A stretch of 64,000 bases of DNA from assembly GCF_009834915.1 (NCBI RefSeq), contig NZ_WVHS01000001.1, positions 248,001-312,000 on the forward strand, in the 5' to 3' direction. Each line of letters opens with the position of its first letter. Position 1 is the first letter of the stretch. The notes beneath the pieces were generated by a model that was not told the DNA's origin, searched no databases, and saw only the letters and a list, made by a program, of their open reading frames with translations. A program made the translations under genes and the position numbers. This document shows, one piece after another, positions 5,360-54,900 of this stretch. The stretch comes from Hufsiella ginkgonis (GTDB taxonomy: Bacteria; Bacteroidota; Bacteroidia; Sphingobacteriales; Sphingobacteriaceae).

Positions 5360-8248
5360 ATGAAGTTAGATATCAATTTCCGCGAAAAATTTGAGGATCG
5401 GCACATTGCACCGGATGCTGCCGGAACAGCAGAAATGCTCCAAATCGTTGGCGCAAGCTCGCTTGAAGAACTGATCTCGCAAACCGTCCCCGACCGCATC
5501 CGGCTAAAAAACCCGATGAATTTACCGGCCGCGAAAAGCGAAGCCGGTTACCTGGAAACCCTTAAGCAAACAGCATCAAAGAATAAGCTATTTAAATCTT
5601 ATATCGGGCAAGGCTACTATGATGTAACTGTACCCGGCGTTATCCAGCGAAACATCCTGGAGAATCCGGGCTGGTACACCCAATACACCCCTTACCAGGC
5701 CGAAATTGCACAGGGCCGGTTGCAGGCACTGCTCAATTACCAGACCATGGTGATCGATCTCACCGGCATGGAGATCGCCAATGCGTCTTTATTAGATGAA
5801 GGCACCGCGGCCGCGGAGGCGATGTTTATGCAATACAGTCTCCGTAAAAACCAGAAAGCGAACATATTCTTCGTTTCGGAGGAGCTGTTCCCGCAAACGA
5901 TCGATATCCTGCGCACCCGGTCTGCTCCTTACGGGATCGAGCTGCTGATCGGCAGCCACCAATCGGCTGAGCTGGGTACGGATATGTTCGGCGCTATCGT
6001 ACAGTATCCTTCCGGGAAGGGCGAAGTGTATGATTATACGGAATTTGCTGCTGCCGCACACGAAAAGGGCATTAAACTTACCGTGGTAGCCGACCTTATG
6101 AGCCTTGCCCTCCTTACACCTCCCGGGGAATGGGGAGCCGACATCGTGGTGGGAAGCAGCCAGCGCTTTGGCGTTCCGATGGGCTTTGGCGGCCCGCACG
6201 CGGCATTTTTCGCCACGAAAGAAGAATATAAACGCGCTATGCCCGGCCGCATTATCGGTGTAACCATCGATTCGGCAGGCAATTACGCCTTAAGAATGGC
6301 GCTGCAAACGCGTGAACAGCACATTCGCCGCGATAAAGCAACCTCTAATATCTGTACCGCACAGGCGCTGCTTGCCATTATGGCCAGCATGTATGCGGTA
6401 TACCACGGTCCGGAAGGTATCAAGGCCATCGCAAGCCGTATACATGGCCTGGCTACTTTTCTTGGAAACGCACTTAACAGCCTCGGCTACAAACAGCTGA
6501 ATACCGCTTTGTTCGACACCCTCCGTTTCGAGCTTGGCGAGCTTACCGGGCCGATCCATTCGGAAGCCCTAAACAATGACGTGAATTTCCACTATTCGGG
6601 TTCATCGGTAACCATCTCGATAGATGAGACTTCGTCTGAAGCGGACATGATCACCATCATCCGTTTATTTGCCAAAGTAAAGGGCAAAACATTAAATTAC
6701 CTTGATCTCGACGGCATTAAGGCGTCGCTTTCCACTTCCATCCCGGAAGCGCTGCACCGTACCACGCCTTATTTAACGCACCCGCTTTTTAATTCGCACC
6801 ATTCGGAGCATGAGATGCTTCGCTATATCAAATCGCTCGAGGCGAAAGACCTTTCGCTTTGCCACTCGATGATTGCGCTGGGCTCCTGCACCATGAAGCT
6901 GAACGCAACCACCGAAATGATCCCCGTTACCTGGCCCGAGTTCGGCAATATGCACCCGTTTGCACCGGCCGACCAGACAGGCGGTTATATGCAGGTGTTC
7001 GATGAACTGAACAAGTGGCTTTGTGAGATCACCGGTTTTGCCGCCATGAGCCTGCAGCCAAATGCAGGTGCGCAGGGCGAATACGCAGGGCTGATGGTGA
7101 TCCGCGCGTTCCACCAAGATCGCGGCGAAGGGCACCGGAACGTAGCGCTGATCCCTTCATCGGCGCACGGCACGAACCCCGCTTCGGCGGCCATGGCCGG
7201 AATGAAGATCATCGTCGTTAAATGCGATGAGCGCGGAAATATCGATGTAAGCGACCTCAAAACAAAGGCGGAAGAGCACCAGCATGATCTTTCCTGCCTC
7301 ATGGTAACCTATCCGTCGACCCACGGCGTATTCGAGGAATCCATCATTGAGATCTGCGAGACGATCCACCAGTACGGCGGCCAGGTATACATGGACGGCG
7401 CGAACATGAATGCACAGGTTGGATTAACCAGCCCGGCCGCTATCGGGGCCGACGTTTGTCACCTTAACCTCCATAAAACGTTCTGCATCCCGCATGGCGG
7501 AGGTGGCCCGGGAATGGGGCCCATCGGTGTAGCCAGGCACCTGGCGCCTTACCTGCCTGGACATATCGTGGTGCCTATAGGCGGCGAAAAATCCATCCCG
7601 GCGGTTTCCGCGGCACCATGGGGCTCGGCCTCTATCCTGCTTATATCGCACGCTTATATCGCCATGATGGGCGCGGAAGGGTTAACCCACGCCACGCAAT
7701 ACGCCATCCTGAACGCCAATTACATTAAAACACGCCTCGAGCAGCACTACCCGGTATTGTATGCCGGGACCAACGGCCGCTGCGCGCACGAGATGATCCT
7801 CGATTGCCGCTCGTTCAAGAACTTCGGTATCGAAGTGACCGACATTGCCAAAAGGTTGATGGATTATGGCTTCCACGCGCCCACCGTTTCATTCCCGGTG
7901 GCGGGAACGGTAATGGTGGAGCCCACAGAATCGGAACCAAAGCACGAACTCGATCGTTTCTGCGAAGCGATGATTGCCATCCGCAAGGAGATCTCGGCGG
8001 TTGAAGAAGGACGTTCAGACAAGGTGAACAACCCGCTGAAAAACGCCCCGCATACCTCGGCAGTGGTTACCGCCGATAACTGGGACCGCCCTTATTCGCG
8101 GCAGGAGGCGGCATTCCCGCTTCCATACGTGGCACATTTCAAGTTCTGGCCTTCCGTGGGACGCGTGAACGATACCCACGGCGACCGTACCCTGATCTGC
8201 TCCTGCCAGCCGCTGGAAGCATATGCAGAAGAAGTAGTAAATGCGTAA
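5360..8248 (+). CDS. gcvP: Glycine dehydrogenase (decarboxylating), P-protein
   Basis: This is a full-length single-chain P-protein of 962 residues, with N- and C-terminal halves fused as in most Gram-negative bacteria. The pyridoxal-phosphate lysine is K706 in [17 protein letters not shown]. Other family blocks include YIGQGYYD near residue 80, GSCTMKLNA, and [11 protein letters not shown]. The enzyme decarboxylates glycine and passes the aminomethyl group to the lipoyl H-protein. Other gcv genes are not in the window, as is common in this phylum. It has its own promoter-like element and a possible threonine dehydrogenase nearby. Confidence 0.97.
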
Positions 8249-8362
8249 ACGGCTGGCTGACTGAACATACCAAACAGCGGTTACGGCCGTTGAGTATAAT
8301 GTAATGACCTTCATCGTTTTGTCAAAAAACCATTAGGTGTTATAACGTATAATTTTAAGGAG

Positions 8363-8370
8363 TACTTTTG
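8363..8370 (+). promoter_or_regulatory. Bacteroidota -7 element (TACTTTTG) of the yceI-like gene
   Basis: TACTTTTG fits TAnnTTTG exactly and lies 27 bases before the ATG at 8398. Its last three bases (TTG) would be the alternative start codon at 8368. This argues that 8368 is promoter sequence and that translation begins at 8398. Confidence 0.55.
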
Positions 8371-8397
8371 CACATCGAAAAGAATAAAAAAGAAACT

Positions 8398-8982
8398 ATG
8401 AAAAAGACATTGGCATTTTTAAGCGTACTGGCGGCCCTGAGCCTGTCGGCGTTTGTTGCAAAGAAAGACGAAACCTATACGGTTGACGTAAGCAAATCAT
8501 CTATCGAATGGATCGGCAGGAAAGTAACCGGTCAGCACACCGGCACGGTTAAGATCGCTTCCGGCAACCTGATCTACAACGGCGCTACGCTGAAAGGCGG
8601 AACATTCACCATGGACATGAATTCTGTGGTTACTACCGACGGTTCCGGCGCACGACTGGAAACACACTTGAAATCACCCGATTTCTTTGGAGTAGAAAAA
8701 AATCCGACCTCTACTTTCACCGTTACTAAAGTCGCGCCCGCAGGCGGCGACCAGGTTAACATTACCGGTAATTTAACTATCAAAGGGATCACTAAACCGC
8801 TTACGTTCCCAGCAACCGTTAAAAAACAGGGTAATGCCATTGCAGCGGTTGCCAAAGGCGTGAAAGTGGACCGCACCAAATACGACATCAAGTACAACTC
8901 GAAGAGCATCTTCGCTGCAATTGGCGACAAAGCCATCGACGATGAGTTCGAGCTCGCCATTAACCTTGTGGCTACAAAATAA
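8398..8982 (+). CDS. YceI family periplasmic lipid-binding-like protein
   Basis: Using the ATG at 8398 gives 194 residues with a good signal peptide (MKKTLAFLSVLAALSLSAFVA). The longer start at 8368 would overlap the promoter element. The mature part shows the YceI pattern: YTVDVSKSSIEWIGRKVTG, then GGTFTMDMNSV, LKSPDFFGVEKNPTSTF, and NLTIKGITKPLTFPA. The family forms a lipocalin-like barrel that binds polyisoprenoids or other amphiphiles in the periplasm, and its physiological role is poorly defined. The gene is monocistronic, with a terminator directly after it. Confidence 0.93.
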   Translation: MKKTLAFLSVLAALSLSAFVAKKDETYTVDVSKSSIEWIGRKVTGQHTGTVKIASGNLIYNGATLKGGTFTMDMNSVVTTDGSGARLETHLKSPDFFGVEKNPTSTFTVTKVAPAGGDQVNITGNLTIKGITKPLTFPATVKKQGNAIAAVAKGVKVDRTKYDIKYNSKSIFAAIGDKAIDDEFELAINLVATK

Positions 8983-22417: not shown

Positions 22418-24394
22418 ATGTCACATTTTACTTCTCTTCAATTAAAATCTGCGGGGGCAACGATTCCCGCCTATGTAAGTACACTTATTGTGGGGGCGGG
22501 CATGTCGGGCCTTTACAGTGCCTGGCGCATCCTTGACAACGACCCGCAGGCCGACCTGGTTATCCTCGAACAGTCAGGCCGTACCGGCGGACGCCTGGAT
22601 TCCGACCTGATCGAGTTCAGCGACGGCGAAACAGTGAAGGAAGAAGAAGGCGGGATGCGCTTCACCTTCGATTCCATGGATAACCTGATGGCCCTTTTTA
22701 TGATCCTGGATATCGATGGCGACATCGTTCCCTTCCCAATGAGCACCGGTGGCAACAACCGCCTGTGTTTCCGCGGTGCGAGTTTTAACAACACCATCTC
22801 TGCGGAAAATAATTACGCCATCTGGAAAGAGCTATACAACCTGGCGCCAAGCGAGCAAGGTATCAATCCTACTTCCATTATCGACACGGTTTTTAACCGC
22901 ATCCTGGCAGCCAACCCGCAGTTTACCGACCGGCCCAAAGTGCGCACACCCGAATTCTGGCAAAAGTTCAGGTTGGAATGTAAATGGAACGGCGTAGGGC
23001 TCATCAATTGGACACTGTGGAACCTGTACACCGAAATGGGTTATTCTAAAGAATGCATCAACATGCTTTATGGACTGGCGGGCTTTAACGGCACCTTCCT
23101 GTCGACCATGAATGCCGGCGAAGCTTACCAGCTGCTCGAAGATTTCCCGGCGGATCCTGATTTTAAAACGCTGAAAGAGGGATTCAGTACACTGCCTAAC
23201 GCGCTGGTGAAGCAGATCGAAAAGGACGGTAAAGGACGTATTTTCCTGGACACCATGGTAGCCAGTATCGACGAATACGCACAAGATGGCTATGTGGTCT
23301 CCTATCGTTATCAAACCAGCGACAACACCCTCGAAGAAGGGAGAATAAAAGCCGGCCGGGTCATTCTGGGTATCCCGCGCCTGCCGCTCGAAAAATTGTT
23401 CAACCGCTCTAACGCCCTCAATAAGCTGCCGTTAAAAGACGCTGAATACCTTTGGGATACCCTTCAAACCACCACCAACCAGGCGTTGCTTAAAATCAAC
23501 CTTTACTTCGACCACGCGTGGTGGGGCACCAATCTTACCGGTCAGCCATCGGTGGGTTACGGGCCAAATTTTTCAGACCTGCCTACCGGGGCCGTATACC
23601 CATTTTATGCGATAGACGAACCTACCATCGCCTCGCTGGAATACGAGAAATTTATGCAGCAAGCTAAGAAACCTATTCCCGAACATTTGCGCAGTAAATT
23701 AGAAAATATCGCCAATTCCAAATTCAACAAACCAGCCGCACTTACTATCTACTGCGATTACCTGAACATCAATTTCTGGAAAGCATTGCAGAATAACGGC
23801 GCAATGTTTACCTCGCCTATGCAGGAAGAGTTTAACCAACAGGTGCCGCAAAAGGTATTTGCCGCCAGCGAAGCCGTGGTAGAGGCCGCCATCGGCTTTT
23901 TCAAACAACTGTTTAATACCAATTACATCCCGACGCCGGTACTTACCAGCGCACGTATCTGGGAAGGTTCCAGCCTGTTTAACCTGAAACCCAGCGAGCA
24001 GTTTGATTACGGTGTGCACCAGTGGGGATTAAATGCGGATGATAAAACGGTGATGGCCTACCTGGCCGAGCCGATGCCTAACCTGCATATTTGCGGCGAA
24101 GCTTATTCTGATTACCAGGGATGGGTAGAAGGCGCCCTGCGCTCCGCCAACCTGGTACTGGAAAAAGCTTTCGGCCTTAAGCCTGTTAACGAGGTCTACC
24201 AGCAGGAGCACGGCCAGACCCCCACCGAAGCGGTTACCCTGAGCTATGCCAACTATGCCGGGGCGCTGATCAAAGAATACATCGATCCCGATTTTAACCT
24301 CCCTGCCGATACAGGGCAACTGGTGGCCGCTGAAAGTAAGAAAGAAAGCCCGCTGTTCGGCATCAACCTCACCTATTTTGACCAACCCGAATAA
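22418..24394 (+). CDS. FAD-dependent L-amino-acid-oxidase-like enzyme (flavin amine oxidase family)
   Basis: The protein has 658 residues. The Rossmann motif GAGMSG (26-31) is followed by the second flavin motif, RTGGRLDSD. EEEGGMRF places R81 where amino acid oxidases of the LAAO/tryptophan-monooxygenase group bind the substrate carboxylate. The C-terminal FAD motif is ICGEAYSDYQGWVEGALRSA. There is no signal peptide. Known relatives oxidise L-amino acids to imino or 2-oxo acids, and RebO and VioA do this for tryptophan before a ferritin-like dimerising enzyme acts. It is the first gene of the cluster, 26 bases before the ThDP decarboxylase. The substrate is not known. Confidence 0.8.
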   Translation: MSHFTSLQLKSAGATIPAYVSTLIVGAGMSGLYSAWRILDNDPQADLVILEQSGRTGGRLDSDLIEFSDGETVKEEEGGMRFTFDSMDNLMALFMILDIDGDIVPFPMSTGGNNRLCFRGASFNNTISAENNYAIWKELYNLAPSEQGINPTSIIDTVFNRILAANPQFTDRPKVRTPEFWQKFRLECKWNGVGLINWTLWNLYTEMGYSKECINMLYGLAGFNGTFLSTMNAGEAYQLLEDFPADPDFKTLKEGFSTLPNALVKQIEKDGKGRIFLDTMVASIDEYAQDGYVVSYRYQTSDNTLEEGRIKAGRVILGIPRLPLEKLFNRSNALNKLPLKDAEYLWDTLQTTTNQALLKINLYFDHAWWGTNLTGQPSVGYGPNFSDLPTGAVYPFYAIDEPTIASLEYEKFMQQAKKPIPEHLRSKLENIANSKFNKPAALTIYCDYLNINFWKALQNNGAMFTSPMQEEFNQQVPQKVFAASEAVVEAAIGFFKQLFNTNYIPTPVLTSARIWEGSSLFNLKPSEQFDYGVHQWGLNADDKTVMAYLAEPMPNLHICGEAYSDYQGWVEGALRSANLVLEKAFGLKPVNEVYQQEHGQTPTEAVTLSYANYAGALIKEYIDPDFNLPADTGQLVAAESKKESPLFGINLTYFDQPE

Positions 24395-24420
24395 TCACCC
24401 GCCAGCAGCTTATCATCCAT

Positions 24421-26220
24421 ATGATCAATTCAACACAAATGACGGTTGCCCTGTACCTGAAGCAGCGTCTGGAGCAGCTCGGCCTCGACCGCATGTTCGG
24501 TGTGGCCGGTAACTATACCGCGCCCTTACTTAATACCATCCTGGAGGATAAAACCTCGCCCATTACTATTTCGCGCAATGTAAACGAAATGTGCGCGGGG
24601 TATGCCGCCGACGGCTACGCCAGGTTAAAAGGCCTCAGCGCGCTGCATGTAACGTACAGCGTCGGTGCTTTTAGTTTATTAAATACCATTGCCGGTTCGT
24701 ATACCGAGCAAGTGTCGCTCATCCTCATCAACGGGGCGCCTACCAATAAAGAGGATGCCGTAGAACGATACGCCGGCCTGATGTACGCGCATACCACCGG
24801 CGATATGGTCCCAGATATCGAACTGTTCAGGTCGATAACGGTAGGTGCCGAACGCATCACCAACGCGGTGCAGGCTTGTTTCCAGATAGATTCCGTGCTC
24901 ACCGCCATGCTTACCTATAAACGACCCGTTTATATAGAAGTAACCGAAGACGTATGGCGCGCGCCGTGCAACCCGCCACAAGGCACGTTAAGCTCGGGTG
25001 CGGGTGCCATTATCACTGCCAGCGTAACCAACCAGGCCGTAACGGCTACCATGCAGCTTTTACAGCAATGTAACGAACTGATATTGTGGGCCGGCATAGA
25101 GCTGCAGCGCTTCGGCCTGGAAAATAGCTTTTTACAATTGCTGGAAACCATTAACGACACCTACGGCATCAGCAATGACCAGCCGGTACATTTCGTGACC
25201 TCCCCGCTCAGCAAATCAGTTATTTCAGAGAACCATGCATGGTTTGAGGGCTGCGTGACCTTAACGCAAAGCGAGATCCAATCGCTTGTTGGCACCGGGG
25301 GCTGCGTGATCGGCCTGGGCGCCTGGACCACCGGTAAAGACACCGGCAACCAGAACATCAGGAGCAGCAATACCATTTTTGCCGCGCATGACGGTGTTTG
25401 GGTAGGTGCCGTGTTTTATCCCCTGGTAACCCTGGAATCCTATATGGGGGCACTTCGCGTTGCGTTTATCAATGCCGTCCCCGGCAATACCGCTCAGCTA
25501 AAAGGCTTGCGGCTTACCAGTCCCAAACTGCTGCTGCAAAAATCGGTGCATGCGGCGACCGACCTGAACTACGACAGTTTTTTCAGTACGCTCCAGGACT
25601 GGATCACCGAACAGCATACCCTGGTGGTCGATGCCGGTTTCCCGCTGGTGGGCGCACAAGGTGTAAAAGTACCCGCGCGGGACGGCTTCGTAGCCCAGGC
25701 ATCATGGTTGGCCATCGGCTATTCCGTGGCGGCAGCTACCGGGGTTAAACTGGCCCAGCCCGATCAGCGGATAGCGGTAGTGATGGGCGACGGCGCTTTC
25801 CATGAAACCTGCCAGGCAGTGGCCGATCATTATGCCTACGGGCAAAACAACGTGGTGTTTGTACTGGTAAACGGCATTTATGGCATCGAGCAGGAAATTG
25901 TTAACCCTAACGTATTCAGAACGCAGCCGGTTAACTACCCTGACCGGCAGCTGGACAGCGTTTACCCTTATAACATATTGCCCTCATGGCAATACAGCAA
26001 AATAACCGACGCTTTTGGCGGCGAGGGCAGAAAAGCCACTACCGTAGCCGAACTGCAGCAAATTATGCAGGAGATTGATCGGCGGACGGACATCAACTTC
26101 GTGGTGGAAGTGACCATCCCGCAAACCGCAGTGCCTGCGGCCATCGCCAGGGCGATAGGTACTGCTGTAGGTGAAGACGAAATCGAAAATCCCGCCTGGC
26201 CGCCCGTGGGCGTCTATTAA
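24421..26220 (+). CDS. ThDP-dependent 2-oxoacid decarboxylase (pyruvate/indolepyruvate decarboxylase-like)
   Basis: The protein has 599 residues with the three-domain ThDP fold. The N-terminus carries FGVAGNYTAPLL, and the cofactor-activating glutamate is E56 in NVNEMCAGYAADGYAR. The C-terminal ThDP/Mg motif is GDG at 456-458 (VVMGDGAFHETCQ) and ends in VFVLVNGIYGIEQ. Pyruvate and indolepyruvate decarboxylases share this organisation. It follows an amino acid oxidase gene that would supply a 2-oxo acid, which supports a decarboxylase role on an aromatic or branched 2-oxo acid. Carboligation is an alternative. There are no signal or membrane segments. Confidence 0.82.
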   Translation: MINSTQMTVALYLKQRLEQLGLDRMFGVAGNYTAPLLNTILEDKTSPITISRNVNEMCAGYAADGYARLKGLSALHVTYSVGAFSLLNTIAGSYTEQVSLILINGAPTNKEDAVERYAGLMYAHTTGDMVPDIELFRSITVGAERITNAVQACFQIDSVLTAMLTYKRPVYIEVTEDVWRAPCNPPQGTLSSGAGAIITASVTNQAVTATMQLLQQCNELILWAGIELQRFGLENSFLQLLETINDTYGISNDQPVHFVTSPLSKSVISENHAWFEGCVTLTQSEIQSLVGTGGCVIGLGAWTTGKDTGNQNIRSSNTIFAAHDGVWVGAVFYPLVTLESYMGALRVAFINAVPGNTAQLKGLRLTSPKLLLQKSVHAATDLNYDSFFSTLQDWITEQHTLVVDAGFPLVGAQGVKVPARDGFVAQASWLAIGYSVAAATGVKLAQPDQRIAVVMGDGAFHETCQAVADHYAYGQNNVVFVLVNGIYGIEQEIVNPNVFRTQPVNYPDRQLDSVYPYNILPSWQYSKITDAFGGEGRKATTVAELQQIMQEIDRRTDINFVVEVTIPQTAVPAAIARAIGTAVGEDEIENPAWPPVGVY

Positions 26221-26253
26221 CCACTAATTTTTATTAACCTAATATTAATCACA

Positions 26254-27369
26254 ATGACAGAAAACTTAGACCGTTTTGGCATGGGCGCACGTTTTGTGCC
26301 TGCCGACAAATTATCAGAAGCTAATCTGGGACCGCTGCAGCAACTGGTAGGCGAATGGGAAACCGTTGGAAACTTAACCTTTACCGAAAAAGATGAATCT
26401 GGCGCCGAGGTAACTAAACCCGTAGCCGCCGGTTGGAATACGATCTCGGTACCTGGCGGCGGCGGCTTCATATTTGAGGTAATCCCTTACAAAGAGAACC
26501 TCAAATTTTCTGCGGTAGCCGTACAGGCGGGCAACAGGGGGCCGGTGATCAACGGTACACAGTTTGACCAGGAGATCTTCGGCCTGTTCTATGAGCAGCA
26601 GGTTATCAGCGTTTGTAACACCACTGAATGCGTTAGTATGGGTTTCGGCGCCGGCAAGGTGATCCATGCGGAAACCGGCTTGTTCCTTTATATTACCAAT
26701 TATAACGGCAATTTTACTATTGCCCGTTTAGGCACTGTACCACATGGCAACGCATTACTGGCTTTGGGTAAGTCGTTCGATGTAGCCGACCCCGTTTTCG
26801 AGCCGATCAGCACCCTACCGACGCTTATCGGCGGAGGCCAGGTTTCCCGGTTGGGCTATAACGAACAAATCACTCTTTATAAAAATTTTAAAGAGTTCGA
26901 CAAGGTTAATCCAAACAGTTTCCTGGAAACAAGCCTGGCGCAGGTGCTTGGCCAGGATAAACTGACCGGGGTAACGGTGCTTGATATGGCTACCAACCAC
27001 GCCGACGCTACCGGCGGCATCCTGAACATTCCGTTCATCCAGAGCAACGTTACCGCCACCAACCTGAAGGCAACCTTTTGGCTGGAAACCATCAATAACA
27101 GCCCGCAGGCCGATTTCCTCCAATATTCGCAAACCGTTAACCTGGTATTCCCGGCGGTAAATACCATAGACCCGGTTGTATGGCCGCATATTACCATCGC
27201 TACCTTAAAACGCATGCCGCCTAAACCAGCGCCCGTACCAAAACAGGCAGAAAATACTAACGACCTGGCGCAGCCCGCCACAGCGCAGCCTGTAAGTCCG
27301 GCAGCGGAGCCGGAAGGCAAGGCGTTCAGCGCCGACCTTGATTCAACTCCCGGCGTGCCGCAGCTATAA
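26254..27369 (+). CDS. Heme-binding-protein-like (FABP/nitrobindin-type barrel) protein
   Basis: The protein has 371 residues. Residues 25-200 begin with LQQLVGEWE, a G-x-W opening typical of lipocalin/FABP/nitrobindin barrels. The block VIHAETGLFLYI and the later ARLGTVPHGNALLALG recall proteins annotated as heme-binding in other bacteria, but this is from memory. Residues 200-325 form a second, less clear domain (ITLYKNF, WLETI). The C-terminal 45 residues are a Pro/Ala/Gln-rich tail. There is no signal peptide. It lies between the decarboxylase and the ferritin-like gene, so it may carry a cofactor or an intermediate. Confidence 0.5.
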   Translation: MTENLDRFGMGARFVPADKLSEANLGPLQQLVGEWETVGNLTFTEKDESGAEVTKPVAAGWNTISVPGGGGFIFEVIPYKENLKFSAVAVQAGNRGPVINGTQFDQEIFGLFYEQQVISVCNTTECVSMGFGAGKVIHAETGLFLYITNYNGNFTIARLGTVPHGNALLALGKSFDVADPVFEPISTLPTLIGGGQVSRLGYNEQITLYKNFKEFDKVNPNSFLETSLAQVLGQDKLTGVTVLDMATNHADATGGILNIPFIQSNVTATNLKATFWLETINNSPQADFLQYSQTVNLVFPAVNTIDPVVWPHITIATLKRMPPKPAPVPKQAENTNDLAQPATAQPVSPAAEPEGKAFSADLDSTPGVPQL

Positions 27370-27378
27370 AAAAAGCGT

Positions 27379-27419
27379 CATTAGAGGCTCTCCGCATTAA
27401 ATACGGAGAACCTCTAATG
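27379..27419. other. Strong stem-loop inside the cluster
   Basis: CATTAGAGG-CTCTCCG and CGGAGA-ACCTCTAATG pair almost completely around a nine-base loop. An A7 run precedes it, and no T-run follows on the plus strand. On the plus strand it therefore looks like an RNA-processing or stabilising hairpin, or a weak attenuator, rather than a classical terminator. Confidence 0.6.
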
Positions 27420-27469
27420 GTTTGCATCGGTACTTTATATCATAACACACTCCTCAAACAACCTGAATT

Positions 27470-29749
27470 ATGTTGCAAGCACAAAAACCGATTACCGACA
27501 GGCCGCTTTCCTTCGTGGAAACAGACAAGTCGGCACTTAACGCCATCGCACAGGCGTCGGTAAATGTGGAGCTTTTTACCATCCCGCTTTACATGACCTC
27601 CCTTTATTCTATTTACGGCACCCACCAGGTTAACGGCCAGAACGACTTTTACGAGGGCCGTTTGTGGCCTGGTATGTCAACTTCCGTTATCAGGAAAAAA
27701 GACCCTGCAGACCCGGACCCGGATGCACGAAAAAACCTCACTCCCTATGATACCCAGGGCAATAAAGAGGCCTTCAACGGCATCTTCAGCGTTTTTATTG
27801 CCGAGATGCTGCACCTGCAGCTAGCCTCTAATCTTTGCAATGCCATTGGGGTAAAACCTACCTATACCGGCGCGCCCCTTCAGAATGAAAACTTCGGCTG
27901 GGATTGCTATGCGGGTTCTTCTGTCATTCCGCATATTCTCGATTTCCAGGATTGCAAGCCGTGGGAACAGATCAAAGCAGAACGCGAAAAAAAAGGAGAC
28001 GATAAAAAACACATACCGATTGACTACCGGGCGATAAAAGTAATGCTCGGCCCCGTCGACCAGAACCAGGTAGACCTCTTTTTAGCCATCGAAGAAACCG
28101 AAGAGGATGCCCATGAGATATTGATCGATCCGGACAAATACTTCCCGACAGTTCCTTTTGCGAACTGGACGGCGAAAAGCAAAGCCGCAGACCTGCCCAT
28201 GTTCGGTTCCATCGGCTATATGTACCTCTGCCTGTTCACCTATCTTTCTATTGAATATACCGACGGGCAAACGCTTTGGGACAAGGTATTTAAAGCCAAA
28301 AGCCTGCAGCAAGACCTGTTTAATACCGACACCGATACCCATAAACCGGAGTATCCGCTGATGAGCGCCACCATCGACGCCAACGAAGCCGCCGCGGCAT
28401 TAACACAGGCGATCGACATGATAGACGGAATTACCGACCAGGGCGAAGGCAAGGGCGTGGTACCCGTCATCCGCCAGATTGCCCACCAGATGCTCCTTAA
28501 CAAAAAAGCAAAATTACAGAACGCGGCAAACAGCGAAACCAACGATCACGGTAAACTGGATGAAGCGATTGCCCGGCTTGCCGCGCTGACGGCTGTAGCG
28601 CACCAATACCAGCCGAATGCCGACAACCTCGAAAAAGACTACCCGAGCTACAATGATAAAGGCATACAGCAAAAACAATCAAGGGATGCTTACGCCCGGG
28701 TTAGTTTTGGCAGCGTAGATCATTATGCAACCTTCGCCAAGGTAAGGGAGTTGCTGCTGGACGGGCAGATCAAAACCTGGGCCGACTGGCATGCCGATCC
28801 ACAGAACGTTTGGACAGCCTCGATGCTTAAAACCAAAGACCACGTGGCCGATAAATACCCCATCCCATCAGCACAGGATGTGGCAGGTGCACTTAATAAC
28901 TTGAAACAGAAAGATCCCGACAAAAATTACCAGATGCTGAGCCACGTGGTGGCCGGCGCCATCAAAGGCGTTACCAGCGTATTGAATGACTACTTCAACA
29001 AACCGGGCACCTCGTTCCCTTTCCCGTCTATGAGCGGTTCTGGCGACAGGATGGCACTATGTTGGGCTGTTTTCGGTAAGGCGCCAGCCTTGTCTATCGG
29101 TGTAGAGAGCAAGGTATCGGGCTTGCTGTACCACGCCTGCCAGGGCCTCAGCCTGGATCCGAATAACCCGGGCAAACCCAACTCATGCGCGCCGGTGGCC
29201 GTTTTCCATACCTGCAAAGGTTCTAATACCTGCGCCGCCGAGGGCGGATGCGGCTTTGTACAGAGCGTACAGGGTGGCGGCAGTTGCGGCGGCGGCGGTT
29301 CATCATGTACAAGTTCAGGCAAGCCGTCTCCCAAGGGGATAGCCAGCAAGCACGCCATGCTGAATGCCACTAAAGGCCATGCATTACACGGGGCTGCTCC
29401 TAATATCCCCAATCCGTTTACCAAGCCGCGGTCGCCTGCGTATTACAGCGCCCCGTCTGATAATCGCTGCATGTCATATGGCGGCTGCGCAGTACCCATT
29501 TCGGCGTCGCAGATCTTCCCTGCGCCTGATTCAACCGATCCTGAACAACCCGGCCAGATGGAGCTCTACAACTTCCTGGGCTCACAGTTTCAGCCTATGC
29601 CGGTCAATACCATGAGCTACCAGGCGGGCGACCTGGTGTACGACGTGGCCTGGAACGCGTATATTGCCGTATTGCAGGAACGCAACCGGCCCATACCGCC
29701 GAAACCGAAACCCAGCGATATCCGTTTGGCATTTCCTCCTTCTACCTGA
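27470..29749 (+). CDS. VioB/RebD-type ferritin-like enzyme with cysteine-rich C-terminal tail
   Basis: The protein has 759 residues. The N-terminal ~330 residues match the ferritin-like domain of iminophenylpyruvate-dimer-synthase proteins (VioB/RebD): [34 protein letters not shown] with Exx[10 protein letters not shown], and a [10 protein letters not shown] loop. Residues 330-560 are helical with no clear match. The last 190 residues are cysteine-rich: C573, C582, C588, C594, C606, C613, C667 and C673, including CKGSNTC and [11 protein letters not shown]. Such C-x-G-x-N-x-C segments resemble peptides modified by MNIO enzymes. An MNIO gene starts five bases downstream. The cysteines could also bind metal unmodified. 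Confidence 0.7.
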
Positions 29750-29754
29750 TCTAT

Positions 29755-30678
29755 ATGAGCAACATCCCGAACACCCCGCGCCTTGGCCTGCCAAACCTGG
29801 GCCTTGGCGTGGGTTTACGCAGCAAACATTATCAGCACCTGCTTCGTGAGCCTTTGCAGGTAGACTGGTTTGAGATCATTAGTGAGAACTACATCGACGA
29901 CTATGGCTTTTCCCGCCACGTGCTCGATCATGTGCGGGCCCAGGTACCCGTAGTAATGCACGGCGTATCCCTGTCTATTGGCAGTACGGATCCTTTAAAC
30001 CTGGATTACCTGGCTAAGCTTAAACAACTGGCGGATGAAATAGAACCAGCCTGGATATCAGACCACCTTTGCTGGACGGGCGTCCTGGGCGCCAACACGC
30101 ACGACCTGCTGCCCATGCCACTCACCGTAAAAAGCCTGAAGCACGTAACCGAACGTGTGGGGCAGGTGCAGGATATGCTGAAGCGACCGCTTGTGCTCGA
30201 AAATCCGTCTACTTATATCGAGTTCAGGAATAACGAGATGGCAGAATGGGAGTTTCTTTCCCAACTGGCAATTACCACGGGTTGCGGCTTGCTGCTGGAT
30301 GTGAACAATGTTTTTGTATCGGCCCACAACCACGGCTTTGATGCGGAGCAGTATATCAGCCACCTGCCTCATCATCACATTGTGCAAATACATTTGGCGG
30401 GCCCTACTGATTATGGTGATTTGCTGGTAGACACGCATGATCAGCCCGTACCGCACCAGGTATGGCAGCTTTACCAGCTGGCGCATCGTTTAACCGGCGG
30501 GGTAAGCACGCTACTGGAATGGGACGCCCGTATACCCGACTACCCCGACCTGGTAGCGGAGGTGTTTAAGGCCAGGCTGGTTTGGAACGGCAATATGCCC
30601 GCCACGCCGGTAAAGGCGTCGTCACAACCGCCGGTGGCACACCCGCTTAACGTTCTTGCTGCCACGGTTTATGAATGA
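29755..30678 (+). CDS. DUF692 family multinuclear non-heme iron oxidase (MNIO)
   Basis: The protein has 307 residues with a TIM-barrel DUF692 pattern and intact putative iron ligands: H69 in VMHGVSLS, D103-H104 in ISDHLCW, E149 in LVLENPS, D182/N184 in [10 protein letters not shown]213 in IHLAG, D226-H228 in DTHD and E255 in LLEWD. Characterised members (MbnB, TglH, ChrH) oxidise cysteine or related residues in ribosomal peptides. Here the nearest cysteine-rich partner is the preceding ferritin-like protein. The gene overlaps the DUF2063 start by eight bases, giving strong translational coupling. It carries a short N-terminal extension before the GVGLR motif. Confidence 0.92.
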
Positions 30679-31525
30679 TGAAACACAGATACTGCAATGC
30701 TGGCTGGGTGAGATCATCTTAGCCCCCGGCAACCTCGACCAGAAGCTGGAGAGCGTTAGGGCACGCTACCAGGTACATGAACAGCAAGTAGTGGTCGGAA
30801 GCAGAGGAATACCGGCCTATTCGCGCCTGCATGTTTACACCTCCGGTTACGTAGCACGTCTTAAAGAATGCCTATCGGCCGATTTCCCGATACTCAAAAA
30901 GTTCCTGGGCGACGAGGTTTTTGACCGCTTTGTATCCGCGACGCTTATGTTTAGTCCATCGCGGTCCTATTCGTTATACGACCTGGGCTTAAACTTTCTC
31001 AGGTTCCTCGAAAATACCCGTCCCCGGCGTACCGATATGAGCCCGGAGCAACAAGTATTACTTGAGCTTCCACTGGCCATTGCCCGCGTGGAGCGCGCAC
31101 GCCAGGAGGTGCAACGGGCGCCCGGCACCGAGAAGATACCTCTCCCGCTGATCTCCGCCGCCGACCTGATGTTCCAGGATGCTGGCCTAAAGCTTGTTTT
31201 GCCCGCATCGGTGAAGGTCTTTCAGCTTAACTTCACCCTTAAAGATATGCTGGTTAAGCTTCAGAACGACCAGCCTTTTGAGCTCCCCGCCGCGCAAACG
31301 AGCTATATGGCCGTAGTCCGCGCAGACTATCGCCTCTACCTGCACGAGCTGGAAGCGTGGCAGTTCCATTTTCTTACCGCTACCGAGCATCACGTTAACT
31401 TTTACGAAGCCGCCCGCGACACCGCCGCTAAGGTGCAAAGACCTTCCGGCGAACTGCTGGCTGATCTTTGGATATGGCTATCTATCGCGGTAGCGCAGCG
31501 GTTGCTTATCGTTCAGGGATTGTAG
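30671..31525 (+). CDS. DUF2063 (HvfC/BufC-like) partner of the MNIO
   Basis: From ATG 30671 the protein has 284 residues. An upstream TTG at 30656 is less likely because 30671 gives the usual 8-base overlap with the MNIO stop. The N-terminal half shows the DUF2063 signature: [24 protein letters not shown], then [20 protein letters not shown]. The C-terminal half is variable. In known systems this protein forms a complex with the MNIO and helps peptide recognition. No metal or catalytic motif is evident. Confidence 0.85.
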
Positions 31526-48722: not shown

Positions 48723-49588
48723 CTTCTCTTAGTTGTAACTGGTGATAGTCCACCCGTTGGAGTCCATGTTCGCGATCCTAGCTGCTGTGTTCGAGAGAAA
48801 TTGATCCCTCGACTTATTGACAATTGATCGTCTTTTGAATCGAGTTGAGAAGGGTAGCCATTAGAAACAGAGTTCTTTAAACTGTTATAGTGAGCTCCTA
48901 ACTTTAGCGTCGTCTCACCAAACCCCAAGGAATGTCCCGCTGCACCCCATAGATAATTCCCAAAGTTCATCTGATTATGTACGTAGCCATCTCCTTGAGG
49001 AATAAAGAGCGTCGAAGCAGGGGTATTTAACGGGTCATTGCTCGCTCCAGCTTCTCCAAACTCGGTTGGAAGTGTGGTATATGAGAAATCCAAAGCTCCA
49101 CCTCCTTTGCTTTCTTTACTTAGATATCCCCAACTATCTCTGTTTTCGGGATCTAGAGCTCCGGCATTCCCCAGCATATCTGTCATCTTCTTAGAACTTA
49201 CAAACGTTACCCGTTTAATGGTGCCGTTTTCAATGTCTCTTGTGTCTGACTCCGGATCCGCAAACTTATATGATTGCCTGGAGCCTGTTTTTGAATTTTC
49301 AACTACCAGCTTATCGGGCTTGTTATTTCTCTCAACGCGATTGTAATTTCCTTCTTCATCAAAAATATAATCATCCCTGGCCCCTGTTGGGTCGGTGCGG
49401 GTAATAGGATTGTTCTGAACATAGTTGTAGGGAGACAGCCAGTCTCTTTGATTTGCAAGCGGATCTACACTCGTAAAACGTCCAATCACAGGGTCATAGA
49501 ACCGCGCCCCGTAATCGTACTGCCCGTCCAGTTCCTCCTGTAACTCCTTCCCGTTATACAGGTACTTATTCCCTCCCGAACCGGTTTT
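48719..49588 (-). pseudogene. Orphan Rhs 3' end with Ntox44-like toxin tip (tip 1)
   Basis: The open frame shows the Rhs core end ([20 protein letters not shown], then [20 protein letters not shown], then [10 protein letters not shown]) followed by a 220-residue tip. The tip segment [20 protein letters not shown] resembles polymorphic toxin type 44 domains, from memory. Upstream of about 49588 the Rhs gene is replaced by the mobile cassette, so most of the Rhs shell is missing and no proper start is seen. It would need recombination with an intact rhs gene to be expressed. An immunity-like gene follows. Confidence 0.65.
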
Positions 49589-49660
49589 CCAGGCGATTTT
49601 CAGCGTCTCGCACGCCTTTTTTCGCCGGAGTTTCTTTGCCTTGAAGGTAGGATTTTTATT

Positions 49661-49792
49661 TTCAGTTGAAAGAAAGAAGAACAGGATTTCAGATTCAGTT
49701 GAAAGAAAAAAGACCGGTGGCAGGTTCAGTTAAAGGGGATCAGGTATTTTTTTTAGCTGAAAGAAGAAGATTATTCAATTGAAAGAAAGAAG
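49661..49792. repeat. Five short iteron-like repeats (copy 1)
   Basis: TTCAGTTGAAAGAAA-type units begin at 49661, 49694, 49725, 49753 and 49774. Variants include TTCAGTTAAAG, TTAGCTGAAAGAAG and TTCAATTGAAAGAAA, spaced 21-33 bases. The core TTCARYTGAA is palindromic. Two more copies occur inside the primase-like gene near 53502 and 53517. They might be binding sites for the recombinase or a replication protein. Confidence 0.6.
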
Positions 49793-50544
49793 TGCGCGTG
49801 TTCTGGATCAGTATCCCGGTTCCATTCACGGCAGGAAAAGCGGCATTCGTCTTCGTCAGTCAGCGCAAAAGCCACGCCAGCCCGTCCGGCACTTTGAAGT
49901 ATCGTTTACCCATCAGGCAATCGTTCAGCGCCTACCGTGCTGTCATGTCTTTCGCCTTCCTTCCTCGTCCTCATAGTCGGCTCCTCTGTCTGCTCGTTCC
50001 TCGCATCCAGCCGCCGCCTTATTGCTTGGCTCGCCTGCGGGTCGCTCGGGCTTCGGGCGACCTTGTTTTGTTGCCTGCGGCAGCATGGCCGCCCTCGTGT
50101 AGTTCGCCCGGGCCGGGACGATCCGTTTACCCTTGAAGTCCTCGTTCGGCCCGGCCTCCTACATATGCGCCGGTCGCGCTCGTGCCTCGCGCTTCTCCCG
50201 GCTCACCCTCGCTCCACTCGCAGGACGGCTCGCGAAGATCCTGCCCTTAACCAATGATCGTTTCCCTTTGAAGATCCACCCGGGCGCTTTAGGGGCAGTG
50301 CCAGCCTGGCCGGGGAGAACAACGGCATCCTCCGAAGCAGGGACACTGCACCCGTCCAACCCTGCCATGAGGACAAGGGCCTGCACGATCCGTTTTCACC
50401 ATCACGTTAGTGCTTTTCGGCCCTTATCCTCATAGCCGGGCAGCAGGCGAAAAGGCCGTACACAAAAAGAGGAAGATGATATATCCTTTGCCTCCGCACC
50501 AACGGCAGTGGGGAACTTCGGACACTGCAATTAAAGCCTGTAGT
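49793..50544. other. GC-rich non-coding part of cassette, with CGTTTACCC-type repeats
   Basis: No reading frame on either strand shows believable protein composition. The motif (GA)TC(C)GTTTaCCCtTGAAG recurs near 49901, 50119, 50255 and 50386, spaced 130-220 bases. The rest is GC-rich with short inverted segments. It could be a structured or recombination region. The same sequence is in copy 2. Confidence 0.5.
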
Positions 50545-51411
50545 TCACTTCATCGGGTGCCGTGCCTGGATGATGCTGTGCAAAGCTTGCACCTGGTCCT
50601 GCCGGTACTTTTCAGTCGCGCTGATCTTTCGGTGACCGGCAAACACCTGTACCGCCCGCAGTTCCTTTTCTGCTTTAAGAAGGTTTGTGATCACGCTGGC
50701 CCGGATCGTCCGGCAGCTCACTTTGCGGGGATGGAACAGGCTGCCGTAATGGCTCGTTACATGTTTGATTATGTCGGCGGCGAGCAGGTGGCCACCCCGC
50801 AATCCGACCAGGAAGCGATCACTTTGCCTGCCATCAAGAAGCTGTTTCCGGATCACCTGCAGGTAGTTCAGCATCAGCAGTACTTGGGCGGCCCTCAGCG
50901 ACAGCGTTCGCCCGTTAGTATTCGCCTGCGCCCGGACCCGGACCGTTCCCGCTTCCAGATCGATATCTTCTGTACGAAGATCTTCCAGTTCGCGGGGCTG
51001 CAAAGCCTGGTGAATGAGCAGGCCCATAAGTACTTTATTTCGTGTGGCCAACAGGGTATACCGTTCTTCTTTGTGAAGTAATTGCCCGAGCTCGTCCGGG
51101 GTTAACAGGTCCTGCAGCTGGATATCTGTGCTGATGGGATCGCGCAAACGTACAGATACCGCCGGGTTGTCCGTGCGTTTTCCGGCCAGGGTCAGGTACT
51201 GGTAATACGCTTTCAGGCTGCACAGGATCCGGCGAACCGTGCCGGCATTGGGGTAACGTTTGCGAAGCCGGCCGATATAGGTCATCACCTCCTTAAAGCC
51301 GGCCTGGTCTGCACCAGGGCAATTACTTCGGTAGATCTCAATTTCACGGGCGTACAGCCGGGCCGTCGGTGCTGCGTAGCGCTCCGACAGGTAATCATGT
51401 AGTTCATTCAT
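50545..51411 (-). CDS. Tyrosine recombinase 2 (copy 1)
   Basis: The protein has 288 residues with an N-terminal SAM-like core-binding domain (1-95) and a catalytic domain. The first arginine is in LQPRELEDL and the C-terminal HxxxxxxY region is FAGHRKISATEKY. The box II motif is CRTIRAS instead of HxLRH, so one conserved histidine is absent. Activity may be weak or depend on the partner recombinase gene just upstream (frameshifted). Starts three bases from that gene's stop. Confidence 0.85.
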   Translation of the reverse strand: MNELHDYLSERYAAPTARLYAREIEIYRSNCPGADQAGFKEVMTYIGRLRKRYPNAGTVRRILCSLKAYYQYLTLAGKRTDNPAVSVRLRDPISTDIQLQDLLTPDELGQLLHKEERYTLLATRNKVLMGLLIHQALQPRELEDLRTEDIDLEAGTVRVRAQANTNGRTLSLRAAQVLLMLNYLQVIRKQLLDGRQSDRFLVGLRGGHLLAADIIKHVTSHYGSLFHPRKVSCRTIRASVITNLLKAEKELRAVQVFAGHRKISATEKYRQDQVQALHSIIQARHPMK

Positions 51412-51413
51412 CG

Positions 51414-52261
51414 TTAAAGGGTTAAGAGTTGCTGCCGGCTTATCCCGGCATAGATCTGCGTGGTTTCCAAACAGGAGTGGCCCAGGAACTCCCGGAGCAG
51501 TTCCATGCTCACGCCCGAGGCCAGCAGGTGCGTAGCGATCGAGTGACGCAGGTGGTGCAGCGTAGTGCCTGGCGGCAAACCCGCTCTTTCGAGCAGTTCC
51601 GAAAGAACGCCCTGGTAACCCTGGCCGCTCATTCTTCCGCCGGTTTTGTTCAGCATAAAGGCACGTTCCTGGTGATCTGCACGCTCCTGCATATAGTAGT
51701 TCTCCAGGTCGGCGGCCACCTGGGCAGGCATCGGCACCACGCGCCGTTTGGCTCCCTTACCCGAACGGACGTACAGCAATCGCTGTGCAAAGTGTACGTC
51801 TCTTGCATTCAGTGCTTCGCCCTCGTTTCTGCGCAGGCCACAGCTGTAGAACAGGTGCAGTACCGCACGTTCCTGCATCGTCCGGCAGGCGGCAAAGAGC
51901 TTTTCTATAGCATCGGGAGCAAGCGGTTTCCGGCTACTTCTTTCGGGCCTGGGGAAGCGGATCGCGCTGATCGGGTTATGATCGATCCCGCCCGTTTCTT
52001 CCAGCCAGGCAAGAGCACCCGCAGGGCGTAAACGTGGTGGTGGATATACGTTTCGCTTAGCCCGCCTGAACGGTGTTTGCCTGGCCGCTCGCCCAGGTGA
52101 TGATGATAAAGATGAACGTGGTGAGGCTCGGTCAACTGGATATCAGTAAGTGCGCAGTGTTCCAGGAAGTCGGAGGCAATGGCCGGCAACAGCGACACGC
52201 TGCCTTTGCCATAACCGGCGCTGGTTAGGTAAGCCTTAAAGTCAGTGATCAGCGGCATCAT
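51414..52261 (-). pseudogene. Tyrosine recombinase 1, frameshifted (copy 1)
   Basis: The N-terminal frame starts MMPLITDFKAYLTSAGYG at 52261 and contains the core-binding domain. After HVYALRVLL the frame must shift to continue as AWLEETGGIDHNP, KPLAPDAIEKLF and then the catalytic domain (51878-51414): CGLRRNEGEAL, HHLRHSIATHLL, LGHSCLE and TTQIYAG, all catalytic residues present. The same shift is in copy 2, so it predates duplication or is used as programmed frameshifting, though no slippery site is seen. Its start overlaps the primase-like gene by 20 bases. Confidence 0.75.
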
Positions 52262-54590
52262 AGGTGATAGGTGTATGACGGTTTGTAAAGGCTCCCTTGC
52301 ACATATTCCTGGAACTTGGAACGCTAGCGACAAAAACGGCCTTTACATGCTCCATTATGCGTTTTTTATCAGTTCTGGTGTTCCGTGGTGTTCCAGCTTT
52401 CAGCGCGTCCAGTTGGTTCTCCAGGTGCGCCCGGATCTTTTCCCGGATCGCCAGGTAGTTGTCCCAGTACACGATCCGGTATTTAAAGCCCCGGTTGGCG
52501 TAACCGCCGGACTGGCGCAGGTATTCTAAGGCAGTCAGTTCATTCACATAGCGGAACAGCTGCGTCTTGCTCAGGGCCAACGCCTGCCGCACTTCCAGCA
52601 AACTGAACTCCGCTTTTTGGTGGTTACCCGGATACGTTTTTTCAAGGTAACCTTTCAATCGCTCAAAGAAGGCGCGTAGCGATCCGTCCAGCTCGTCCAC
52701 TTTCAGCACGATGCTTTCAAACAAGATCAGCTCGCCATTGCTCTGCAGCTCGCGGAAGGCCAGGCCCGCTTCCTCGGGCAGCCCGTCCATGTCTTCCAGG
52801 CACAGCAGGCGGTTGATCAGGAAGTTTTTCGGGTAGTTGTACAGCGCCTTATCGCTCACGCGGGTCAACCGGGTCACTTTTTCGGGCGGCATGCAGTCGG
52901 AGATCTGCCGGAGCAAACGCGTCTTGCCGCTGCCGGAGCTGCCCTGGATCAGCGCGTGAAGGGGCTCAGCCATCTTATAGCTGGCGGCGATCAGGAACAG
53001 CAGCAACCGGCTGTTTTCTTCGCCTACGATACCCGTTTTGCCAAGCAGCTCGCTTAACTCCGTGATCAGCGACGGGCTTTTCGCCAAGGCTTCGGCCTGC
53101 TCGCGTTCCAGCGCGGTTAAAGGCGTCAGTACTTCTTCGCCCGGATCCGTTTCACGATTTTTAAGGAGTTCCTGTTCGCGGTAGCTTTCTAATAGATCGG
53201 TCAGCTTGTGCAGGTCGGTTTCCATCTGGTAAGTATCTATGTGGAGTTTTTCGGCCGCTTCCCTTGCCGTCTTTTCCACCTGTTTATCTTCGTACAGGTC
53301 GAGCTTTACGCGGCTCTTGCCGCTTTCGGTTTCGATGGCCAAAGTAACTTTCAGGCTGTCGGGCAGTTTGGAGATGCCGCCCAGGATATAGTAGCGGGCG
53401 GTATCCGTCCGGAAGCTTAGCTTCCAGGGGTTTTCCACGTTCAGGGCGGGGGCTTCTTTGGGCGGTTCGGGAACTGGTTGGAAAGGGGCAGGTTTTTCTT
53501 TTTCAGCTGATAGATTTTCAGTTGAAAGAAAAAGATCCGTGCGCTCGGCCAGCAGCTGGCTGAACAGGGCTTGATCCTGGTGAGCCAGTGCCGTTTCGTT
53601 CACGTCTTTACACGGCAGGGCAAGGGTCGAGATTTTAAGGGCGGGCAGTTCCCCGTGCAGTTCTGCGGCGTATTTCCGGGCGGCAGCTTGTCCGGCATCA
53701 TCGCTGTCGAAGGCGAAGATGAGTTCTTGCAGATCGGCAAGTGCTTTAATGGCCGCCCGGTGTTCTTCGTTCAGCCCGTTGGTACCGTAGGCGGCAAGGA
53801 CGCTATAGGTTGCCGTAACCGGGTCAAGCTGCAATAGCGTGGCGGCATCGATGACGCTTTCGGTCAGGATCAGCTTTTTCGTCGCCGGATCCGGGTAGCC
53901 CGGGTAGAGCCCGCTCCGCTCTTTTAAGTAAAAGTGTTTAGCGTGGTCGTTATTCACGGTACTGCGGAAGTATAGGCCGCTGATCTGGTGCTGATTATTT
54001 CGCAGGGCGAACACCAGGCAGCATTTACCGAAGGGCTGGTAAGCTTTTTCGCCGGTACGGCTATTGGTCAGGTTCTTATCGATCAGCAGGCCGTATTTCA
54101 AACAGCTTTGCACCAGGTGTTCTTCCTTGCGCGTCCCGTGGTGGAACTGCCCGGCGTTGTAGCCGATCTCCGTTTTTCGGAAGTCCAGACCGCGCCCGGC
54201 GATATAATCCTGGGCAGGTTTTGAGTTATGCACCGCGTTTTTGAAGTAGGTGAACTGCCGGGTCAGTACCGCCGTTCTGGTCAGCTCGGCGGCAGGGTGT
54301 ACCTGGACTGCGCTGTCTCCGCCGATCAGGGTTTTGCATTTCTCCAAAGCCTCGTGTTTGGTCAGCTTTTCCAGGCGCTGAACCAGCTCGATCACGTCCA
54401 TACTATGGCCGTGCGTGGGGCAGTTCCCGCTGAAACAGTATGCCGTATGCGTCTTGTAATAAAGCTGCATGCTCGGCGTTTTGTCATCATGGAACGGGCA
54501 GTGCAGCCGGTTCTGCTTGTCGGCTTTCAGGCCGTAATGGCGCAGCACTTCGGCAAGGGTAAGCTGCTGCTTGATCTCGGCGATGGTCAT
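52242..54590 (-). CDS. CHC2 zinc-finger/Toprim/ATPase primase-helicase-like protein (copy 1)
   Basis: The protein has 782 residues. The CHC2 zinc finger is C31-x2-H34 ... C52-x4-C57 (CPFHDDKTPS, YCFSGNCPTHG). The Toprim part has ILTESVIDAATLL and FAFDSDDAGQAAARKYA. The ATPase domain has K556 in GSSGSGKTRLLRQ and LCLEDMDGLPEEAG as Walker B region. The C-terminal 120 residues suggest a winged helix. Such primase-like proteins serve replication of small mobile elements. The stop codon region and start overlap both neighbours. Confidence 0.85.
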   Translation of the reverse strand: MTIAEIKQQLTLAEVLRHYGLKADKQNRLHCPFHDDKTPSMQLYYKTHTAYCFSGNCPTHGHSMDVIELVQRLEKLTKHEALEKCKTLIGGDSAVQVHPAAELTRTAVLTRQFTYFKNAVHNSKPAQDYIAGRGLDFRKTEIGYNAGQFHHGTRKEEHLVQSCLKYGLLIDKNLTNSRTGEKAYQPFGKCCLVFALRNNQHQISGLYFRSTVNNDHAKHFYLKERSGLYPGYPDPATKKLILTESVIDAATLLQLDPVTATYSVLAAYGTNGLNEEHRAAIKALADLQELIFAFDSDDAGQAAARKYAAELHGELPALKISTLALPCKDVNETALAHQDQALFSQLLAERTDLFLSTENLSAEKEKPAPFQPVPEPPKEAPALNVENPWKLSFRTDTARYYILGGISKLPDSLKVTLAIETESGKSRVKLDLYEDKQVEKTAREAAEKLHIDTYQMETDLHKLTDLLESYREQELLKNRETDPGEEVLTPLTALEREQAEALAKSPSLITELSELLGKTGIVGEENSRLLLFLIAASYKMAEPLHALIQGSSGSGKTRLLRQISDCMPPEKVTRLTRVSDKALYNYPKNFLINRLLCLEDMDGLPEEAGLAFRELQSNGELILFESIVLKVDELDGSLRAFFERLKGYLEKTYPGNHQKAEFSLLEVRQALALSKTQLFRYVNELTALEYLRQSGGYANRGFKYRIVYWDNYLAIREKIRAHLENQLDALKAGTPRNTRTDKKRIMEHVKAVFVASVPSSRNMCKGAFTNRHTPITYDAADH

Positions 54591-54805: not shown

Positions 54806-54835
54806 AATAAAAAGTTTTATGATAAACATGTGGAA

Positions 54836-54867
54836 CAAATGTAGCGGATGTTTTTCATTGTTGCAAA
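54836..54867 (-). promoter_or_regulatory. Canonical promoter of SymE-like gene (copy 1)
   Basis: On the minus strand TTTG (54867-54864) is followed by 20 bases and TACATTTG (54843-54836), an ideal Bacteroidota promoter. It excludes the longer SymE start at 54838 and implies a 5' leader of roughly 25 bases. Confidence 0.8.
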
Positions 54868-54900
54868 CAATACTTATTTCTTTTGATAAACACCTTTGCC

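Follow-up and report, generated by a model that had tools for sequence, protein, structure and literature searches.

What joins an amino-acid oxidase, a 2-oxoacid decarboxylase, a heme-binding protein, a ferritin-like protein, an MNIO (DUF692) and a DUF2063 protein in one closely spaced gene group, and on which protein does the MNIO act? The question is raised by a locus of Hufsiella ginkgonis (assembly GCF_009834915.1, contig NZ_WVHS01000001.1, positions 248,001-312,000 of the forward strand; these 64,000 nt are here termed the window, and coordinates are given within it). Comparative analysis splits the six-gene unit into a core trio, consisting of the ferritin-like, MNIO and DUF2063 genes, and an accessory set encoding the L-amino-acid oxidase (LAAO), the thiamine diphosphate (ThDP)-dependent decarboxylase and the FMP-type heme-binding protein. 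The most likely reading of the window ferritin-like protein is that of an enzyme carrying its own MNIO substrate in fused form, as a Cys-rich C-terminal tail. On balance, and with moderate confidence, we favor the view that the core encodes a self-maturing ferritin-like metalloprotein, an oxidative enzyme that would carry the modified tail as a second metal or redox centre.

A conserved gene trio

The core of the locus comprises the following features.

27470-29749, + strand: ferritin-like protein with a C-terminal Cys-rich domain, the proposed MNIO substrate (PF12902, 70 bits; cut-off 22.3)
27470-29095, + strand: ferritin-like domain, residues 1-542 (structural match to 3hl1; invariant E34, E112xxH115, E208 and E326)
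29117-29539, + strand: Cys-rich tail, residues 550-690 (seven conserved Cys; homology to the standalone Cys-rich protein of split loci)
29755-30678, + strand: MNIO (DUF692), BufB-like, with an LLEWDA motif (PF05114, 350 bits, cut-off 25; BufB model NF050167, 358 bits, cut-off 310)
30671-31525, + strand: DUF2063 partner protein (PF09836, 49.8 bits, cut-off 27.2; start at ATG 30671 or TTG 30656)

An earlier genome scan using the single window protein as query returned no loci. When 84,980 species genomes were scanned on the basis of an alignment, using patterns derived from the ferritin-like domain only and no selection for the tail or for an MNIO, 80 loci were returned. Together with the window, a genome of its own family (L015) and two Pseudoalteromonas loci (L013 and L014), these constitute a long-form set of 84 loci that extends across the Bacteroidota, Ignavibacteria, Acidobacteriota, Actinomycetota and the alpha-, beta- and gamma-Pseudomonadota, with no viral contigs. 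The ferritin-like, MNIO and DUF2063 genes are adjacent, in the same order and on one strand, in every locus with enough flanking sequence (81/81); the other three (L023, L064 and L073) stop at contig edges and are not countable for gene order. In L013, L014 and L015 the trio keeps this order, and LAAO, ThDP and FMP genes are not nearby. The three core proteins show correlated distances (57 non-redundant loci; Mantel r 0.63-0.81, 0 of 999 permutations), and the neighbor families tallied include no conserved fourth core gene, other neighbors being lineage-bound. Seven PF12902 proteins that lack the tail, among them a second copy in the window genome (L016), have neither an MNIO nor a DUF2063 gene in the stretches fetched around them. 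The window genome encodes only one MNIO, and one of its proteins, with no other, matches the tail profile; within the window cluster there is no further small Cys-rich open reading frame (ORF) on the + strand. The gene content, order and conservation of the core can be taken as established.

Tail-less PF12902 genes also occur in other settings, immediately 5' of an ebo gene set (EboA, TatD-like, UbiA-like, EboE) in L108 and L109, and immediately 3' of a GMC oxidoreductase gene on Rhizobium plasmids in L115 and L118.

The Cys-rich tail in fused and split forms

The predicted fold of residues 1-542 of the window protein is ferritin-like. Its AlphaFold2 model (pLDDT 83, pTM 0.88) superimposes over residues 6-542 on 3hl1 (VIA-align Z 28.8, root-mean-square deviation 2.4 over 277 residues), and E34, E112, H115, E208 and E326 are conserved in all 84 long-form sequences, an E / ExxH / E / E set which, judging from the modelled fold, would be fit for a two-metal site. 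Of the 84 sequences, 83-84 conserve each of the seven tail cysteines (557, 582, 588, 594, 606, 667 and 673), and beyond the tail lies a conserved C-terminus (residues 697-759) ending in ...RLAFPPST.

Six other Bacteroidota genomes (L017, L018, L110, L111, L112 and L113) present the core in a split form, in which the ferritin-like gene is short and devoid of the tail, and a Cys-rich protein of ~190-230 aa is encoded between it and the MNIO gene. The tail and this standalone protein align with their cysteines in matching order (hhalign 97%, E=1.1e-10), and the tail model scores five of the six standalone proteins at 16-26 bits, the best of 3000 shuffles reaching 11.2. The same domain is hence found fused in one form and separate in the other. 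The standalone protein in turn matches BufA2 at E=7.5e-5 (22.9 bits, short of the NF050166 cut-off of 60), and a true BufA2 from L134 reaches 27.5 bits with the model built from it, the highest score among 1000 shuffles being 1.3. Neither the window protein nor any of four standalone proteins showed a signal-peptide-like N-terminus in a simple hydropathy scan.

Taken together, the linkage of the trio, the fusion and fission of the tail, the tail-less relatives without an MNIO, the single MNIO and the single tail match make the ferritin-like protein the likely substrate of the MNIO. The sequence-only reading had suggested modification of the enzyme itself or of an attached peptide, and this is the option that the fused tail of the window and the separate Cys-rich protein of the split form now favor.

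A separate MNIO subgroup

The candidate metal-site residues of the MNIO, located by alignment to 3bww (H69, H104, E149, N184, H213, D226, H228, E255 and D257), are present in 100% of the 84 sequences. All 84 trio MNIOs carry a Trp (LLEWD) in place of the Arg (ERD) seen in 3bww and in the BufB2-type enzyme of L134. The residue that follows the catalytic Asp is Ala in 78 of the 84, and the L134 enzyme reads ERDD; at this site, Lys-Cys MNIOs are reported to have Phe and Cys-Lys MNIOs Asp (PMC13097082). By sequence, the trio MNIOs are thus a separate subgroup, possibly with a specificity of their own. Their DUF2063 partners score 57-68 bits against PF09836 in six relatives of the window.

Accessory genes and the layout of the window locus

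The remaining features of the unit lie upstream of the core.

22418-24394, + strand: FAD L-amino-acid oxidase, LAAO (PF01593, 63 bits; 823 bits to PDB 7c4k); accessory
24421-26220, + strand: ThDP-dependent 2-oxoacid decarboxylase, indolepyruvate/pyruvate decarboxylase-like (PF02776 and PF02775); accessory
26254-27369, + strand: FMP-type heme-binding protein (NF040572, 231 bits, cut-off 150); accessory
27375-27425, + strand: RNA hairpin between the FMP and ferritin-like genes (-25.5 kcal/mol, z -4.9, without a T-run)

The six ORFs (22418-31525) are intact and lie on the same strand, spaced by 26, 33, 100, 5 and -8 bases when the DUF2063 start is taken as ATG 30671. The compact arrangement described in the sequence-only reading is therefore confirmed, and profile searches bear out its family annotation of the six genes. 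It had also proposed a search for MNIO genes next to PF12902-type ferritin-like genes; that adjacency is conserved in several phyla, but the LAAO, ThDP and FMP genes proved optional. The hairpin, which like the Cys-rich tail went unremarked in that reading, occurs once in the genome, and the idea that it is a genome repeat was rejected for that reason. It may be a processing or attenuation site and could divide the unit into two transcripts; with so stable a structure between the FMP and ferritin-like genes, a single six-gene transcript is not certain.

The window LAAO scores 807 bits to 7og2, in addition to its match to 7c4k, and keeps in the alignment the residues equivalent to 7c4k R89, F231, Y447, V535, Q537, G570 and W571 (named in PMC9814856); on sequence grounds it is of the broad-range Pseudoalteromonas type (PMC9814856, PMC9331233). 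Against the VioA model NF053546 it reaches 37.9 bits, the cut-off being 600. The best NCBIfam match of the ThDP enzyme is indolepyruvate decarboxylase (TIGR03393, 205 bits, far under the cut-off of 946), and its solved relatives are 5tma and 8zk6. The FMP protein does not reach the FMP-type peroxidase equivalog NF040571 (86 bits, cut-off 300).

The accessory genes recur with the split core. LAAO and ThDP genes flank it in L017, L113 and L018, and an FMP gene lies beside it in L017 and L113, together with that pair, and in L112, without it. All six families are accordingly found again in L017 and L113, two split-form genomes of one genus, and five of the six in L018 and L029. A one-sequence model had missed these FMP genes and made FMP appear to be a window-only gene, a notion discarded once NCBIfam detected FMP in L017 and L113. 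Identity to the window enzymes is 25-30% for the recurrent LAAOs and 28-34% for the recurrent ThDP enzymes, and gene orders differ; such low identity and variable order argue, at the sequence level, for a repeated or old functional coupling of LAAO and ThDP with the core.

In L110, the FMP and LAAO genes are represented only by short pieces (8076-8578) upstream of the intact split core; this looks like a locus from which the accessory genes were deleted and the core was left.

Other enzymes neighbor the trio in particular lineages. A DyP-type peroxidase-like gene is beside or near it in nine loci of Mucilaginibacter and relatives (L021, L024-L027, L029, L031, L037 and L061), and RND efflux pump genes are directly upstream in four Mucilaginibacter-like loci. 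A gene with PF12588 and PF02666, which we take to be the mark of PsiD-like amino-acid decarboxylases, is directly beside the trio in five loci (L060, L062, L082, L085 and L086; upstream in four, downstream in one) belonging to the Alphaproteobacteria, Actinomycetota and Bacteroidota.

Downstream of the window locus, a GH25 gene at 31540 starts 15 bases past the DUF2063 gene and is not a conserved neighbor of the core. Further on, a 5.8-kb direct repeat (49488-55283 and 56502-62297, 99.9% identical) encodes in each copy a tyrosine integrase and a CHC2/Toprim primase-like gene, with an Rhs-like gene bearing an AHH nuclease domain nearby; a mobile element appears to have been duplicated here recently.

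A proposed mechanism

From these data we infer that the modification occurs, along with its chemistry and the identities of metal, substrate and product. In the cytosol, the MNIO and its DUF2063 partner would recognize the ferritin-like protein and oxidize cysteines in its Cys-rich tail, the probable outcome being 5-thiooxazole-type rings by analogy with bufferins (PMC13097082). The modified tail would bind a metal, most likely copper, beside the ferritin-like domain, and the ferritin-like protein would be an oxidative enzyme for which the tail serves as second metal or redox centre. Where the accessory genes are present, the LAAO would convert an amino acid into its 2-oxo acid and H2O2, and the ThDP enzyme would turn the 2-oxo acid into an aldehyde or acyloin; the LAAO, ThDP and heme-protein genes may in this manner supply the ferritin-like enzyme with an amino-acid-derived substrate or with peroxide. 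A broader formulation, which we put forward tentatively and as possible rather than probable, is that MNIO chemistry does not yield a copper-binding peptide here but equips a ferritin-like enzyme, with an oxidative role in amino-acid metabolism, with a protein-derived metal or redox cofactor; this would be of thiooxazole type and sit either on the fused tail or on a separate carrier protein.

Several observations weigh against this mechanism. As regards contact of the tail with the ferritin-like site, the tail is modelled at low confidence by AlphaFold2, even when modelled alone. Direct homology of the tail to BufA2 was considered and is unsupported, since the tail scores BufA2 no better than shuffles and has no NF050166 match; the link to bufferins is hence a two-step one, via the standalone protein. 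DUF2063 partners (PME-type 1) are reported to accompany precursors that have a signal peptide (PMC12452194), whereas the window protein and the standalone proteins scanned show no such N-terminus. LAAO and ThDP genes lie near the long form in only two of the 84 loci (the window and L029) and do not occur in the flanking sequence fetched for the other 82, so that the six genes do not form an obligate unit; the operon-like union of all six families described in the sequence-only reading recurs in L017 and L113, but does not extend to most long-form loci. Finally, the LAAO-ThDP pair is on a different contig from the core in G099 and occurs in a genome without any MNIO in G245 (the two cases L131/L132), and this location away from the core indicates that the two genes form an independent unit.

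Alternative explanations

The main rival to a self-maturing enzyme is a metal buffer without an enzymatic role, in which the tail would be a bufferin-like copper buffer, the ferritin-like domain would store or oxidize metal, the trio would serve metal homeostasis, and the LAAO, ThDP and FMP genes would be unrelated neighbors. The BufB-type MNIO, above its cut-off, the BufA2-like standalone protein, the RND pump genes upstream of four Mucilaginibacter-like loci and the copper protection conferred by bufferins (PMC12452194) all suit such a buffer. We nevertheless consider it unlikely, given that LAAO and ThDP genes recur with the core despite very different sequences and gene orders, that PsiD-like decarboxylase genes adjoin the core in three phyla, and that the proteins, having no signal peptide, are probably cytosolic.

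A pathway similar to VioA/VioB or RebO/RebD, with an LAAO-made imine coupled by the ferritin-like enzyme, appears quite improbable. PF12902 is common to both, and in L018 the best NCBIfam match of the LAAO is VioA (80.9 bits) and the ferritin-like protein matches VioB weakly. The window protein, however, has no VioB match (TIGR04492, at E 0.01), its LAAO is of another type, and LAAO genes are missing from the flanks fetched around 82 of the 84 long ferritin-like genes. The earlier assignment of a VioB/RebD-type ferritin-like protein thus stands at the level of PF12902 and fails at that of the VioB equivalog, and the accompanying comparison to RebO/VioA bis-indole synthesis is not indicated.

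Slightly less probable again is a released ribosomally synthesized and post-translationally modified peptide, for which the tail would be modified, cut off and exported, the ferritin-like part acting as leader or as a further tailoring enzyme. The precursor-MNIO-partner order does match that of bufferin clusters (PMC12452194), and the Cys domain is a separate protein in split loci; yet a conserved C-terminus (697-759) follows the tail, and the families that recur with the core include no identified protease or exporter. Lastly, an unlinked MNIO substrate, with some other cause for adjacency to the ferritin-like gene, is conceivable insofar as some precursors lack a genetic link to an MNIO gene (PMC12452194), but is very improbable in a genome with a single MNIO and no other tail-profile match, in a cluster without another small Cys-rich + strand ORF and with trio linkage in 81/81 loci.

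Comparison with known systems

Whether MNIOs act on proteins as well as on peptides is an open question, and the ferritin-like family provides a clear test case: the protein is large and folded, it has a dedicated MNIO and partner encoded next to it in several phyla, and its Cys domain, part of the chain in one lineage but a protein by itself in another, constitutes a natural experiment. The accessory genes point to amino-acid chemistry beyond copper buffering and, if the proposal is true, DUF2063 partners extend to substrates without signal peptides. A survey of the MNIO landscape (PMC12452194) foresees protein substrates and makes no mention of ferritin. In the literature searched, which did not cover subscription papers, we found no paper linking MNIO/DUF692 with LAAO and no description of a system with all six families, in agreement with the sequence-only reading, which knew of none.

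Among the individual components, 3hl1 (Caulobacter CC_0557, ferritin-like) shares the fold of residues 6-542 but is far shorter, at 317 aa. The LAAOs of Pseudoalteromonas luteoviolacea (7og2) and AncLAAO-N5 (7c4k) match the whole window LAAO at more than 800 bits with catalytic residues kept, and the available parts of PMC9814856 and PMC9331233 do not describe an association with MNIO or ferritin-like genes. The VioB/RebD dimer synthases share PF12902 and, in some loci, the LAAO neighbor, whereas the window protein lacks a VioB model match, goes with another LAAO type and carries an MNIO tail. The adjamnio-I family (122-293 aa, 8-21 Cys, no signal peptide, located before an MNIO; PMC12452194) resembles, by comparison of descriptions only, the standalone protein of split loci in size, Cys number, lack of a signal peptide and position, but is reported with PME-type 2 partners, as opposed to the PF09836 partners of the trio. 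The standalone protein may be an adjamnio-I member.

The closest parallels come from bufferins, for which gene clusters and a small number of fusion proteins are already known (PMC12452194). The bufABC clusters (BufA1/BufA2, BufB MNIO, BufC DUF2063) have the same substrate-MNIO-DUF2063 order as the trio, the trio MNIO exceeds the BufB cut-off, and a CxGxNxCKGH stretch is common to BufA2 and the standalone protein. They differ in that the trio substrate is a ferritin-like protein of ~620-775 aa or, in split loci, a protein without a signal peptide, that Ala predominates at the site following the catalytic Asp, and that trio loci come with accessory redox enzymes. The MerC-Buf and Cytochrome c-FGE-Buf1 fusions (PMC12452194) likewise place a bufferin-type domain on a larger protein; these are few and bear recognized bufferin domains, whereas the ferritin-like family comprises more than 80 loci from several phyla, is ferritin-like in fold and lacks a signal peptide.

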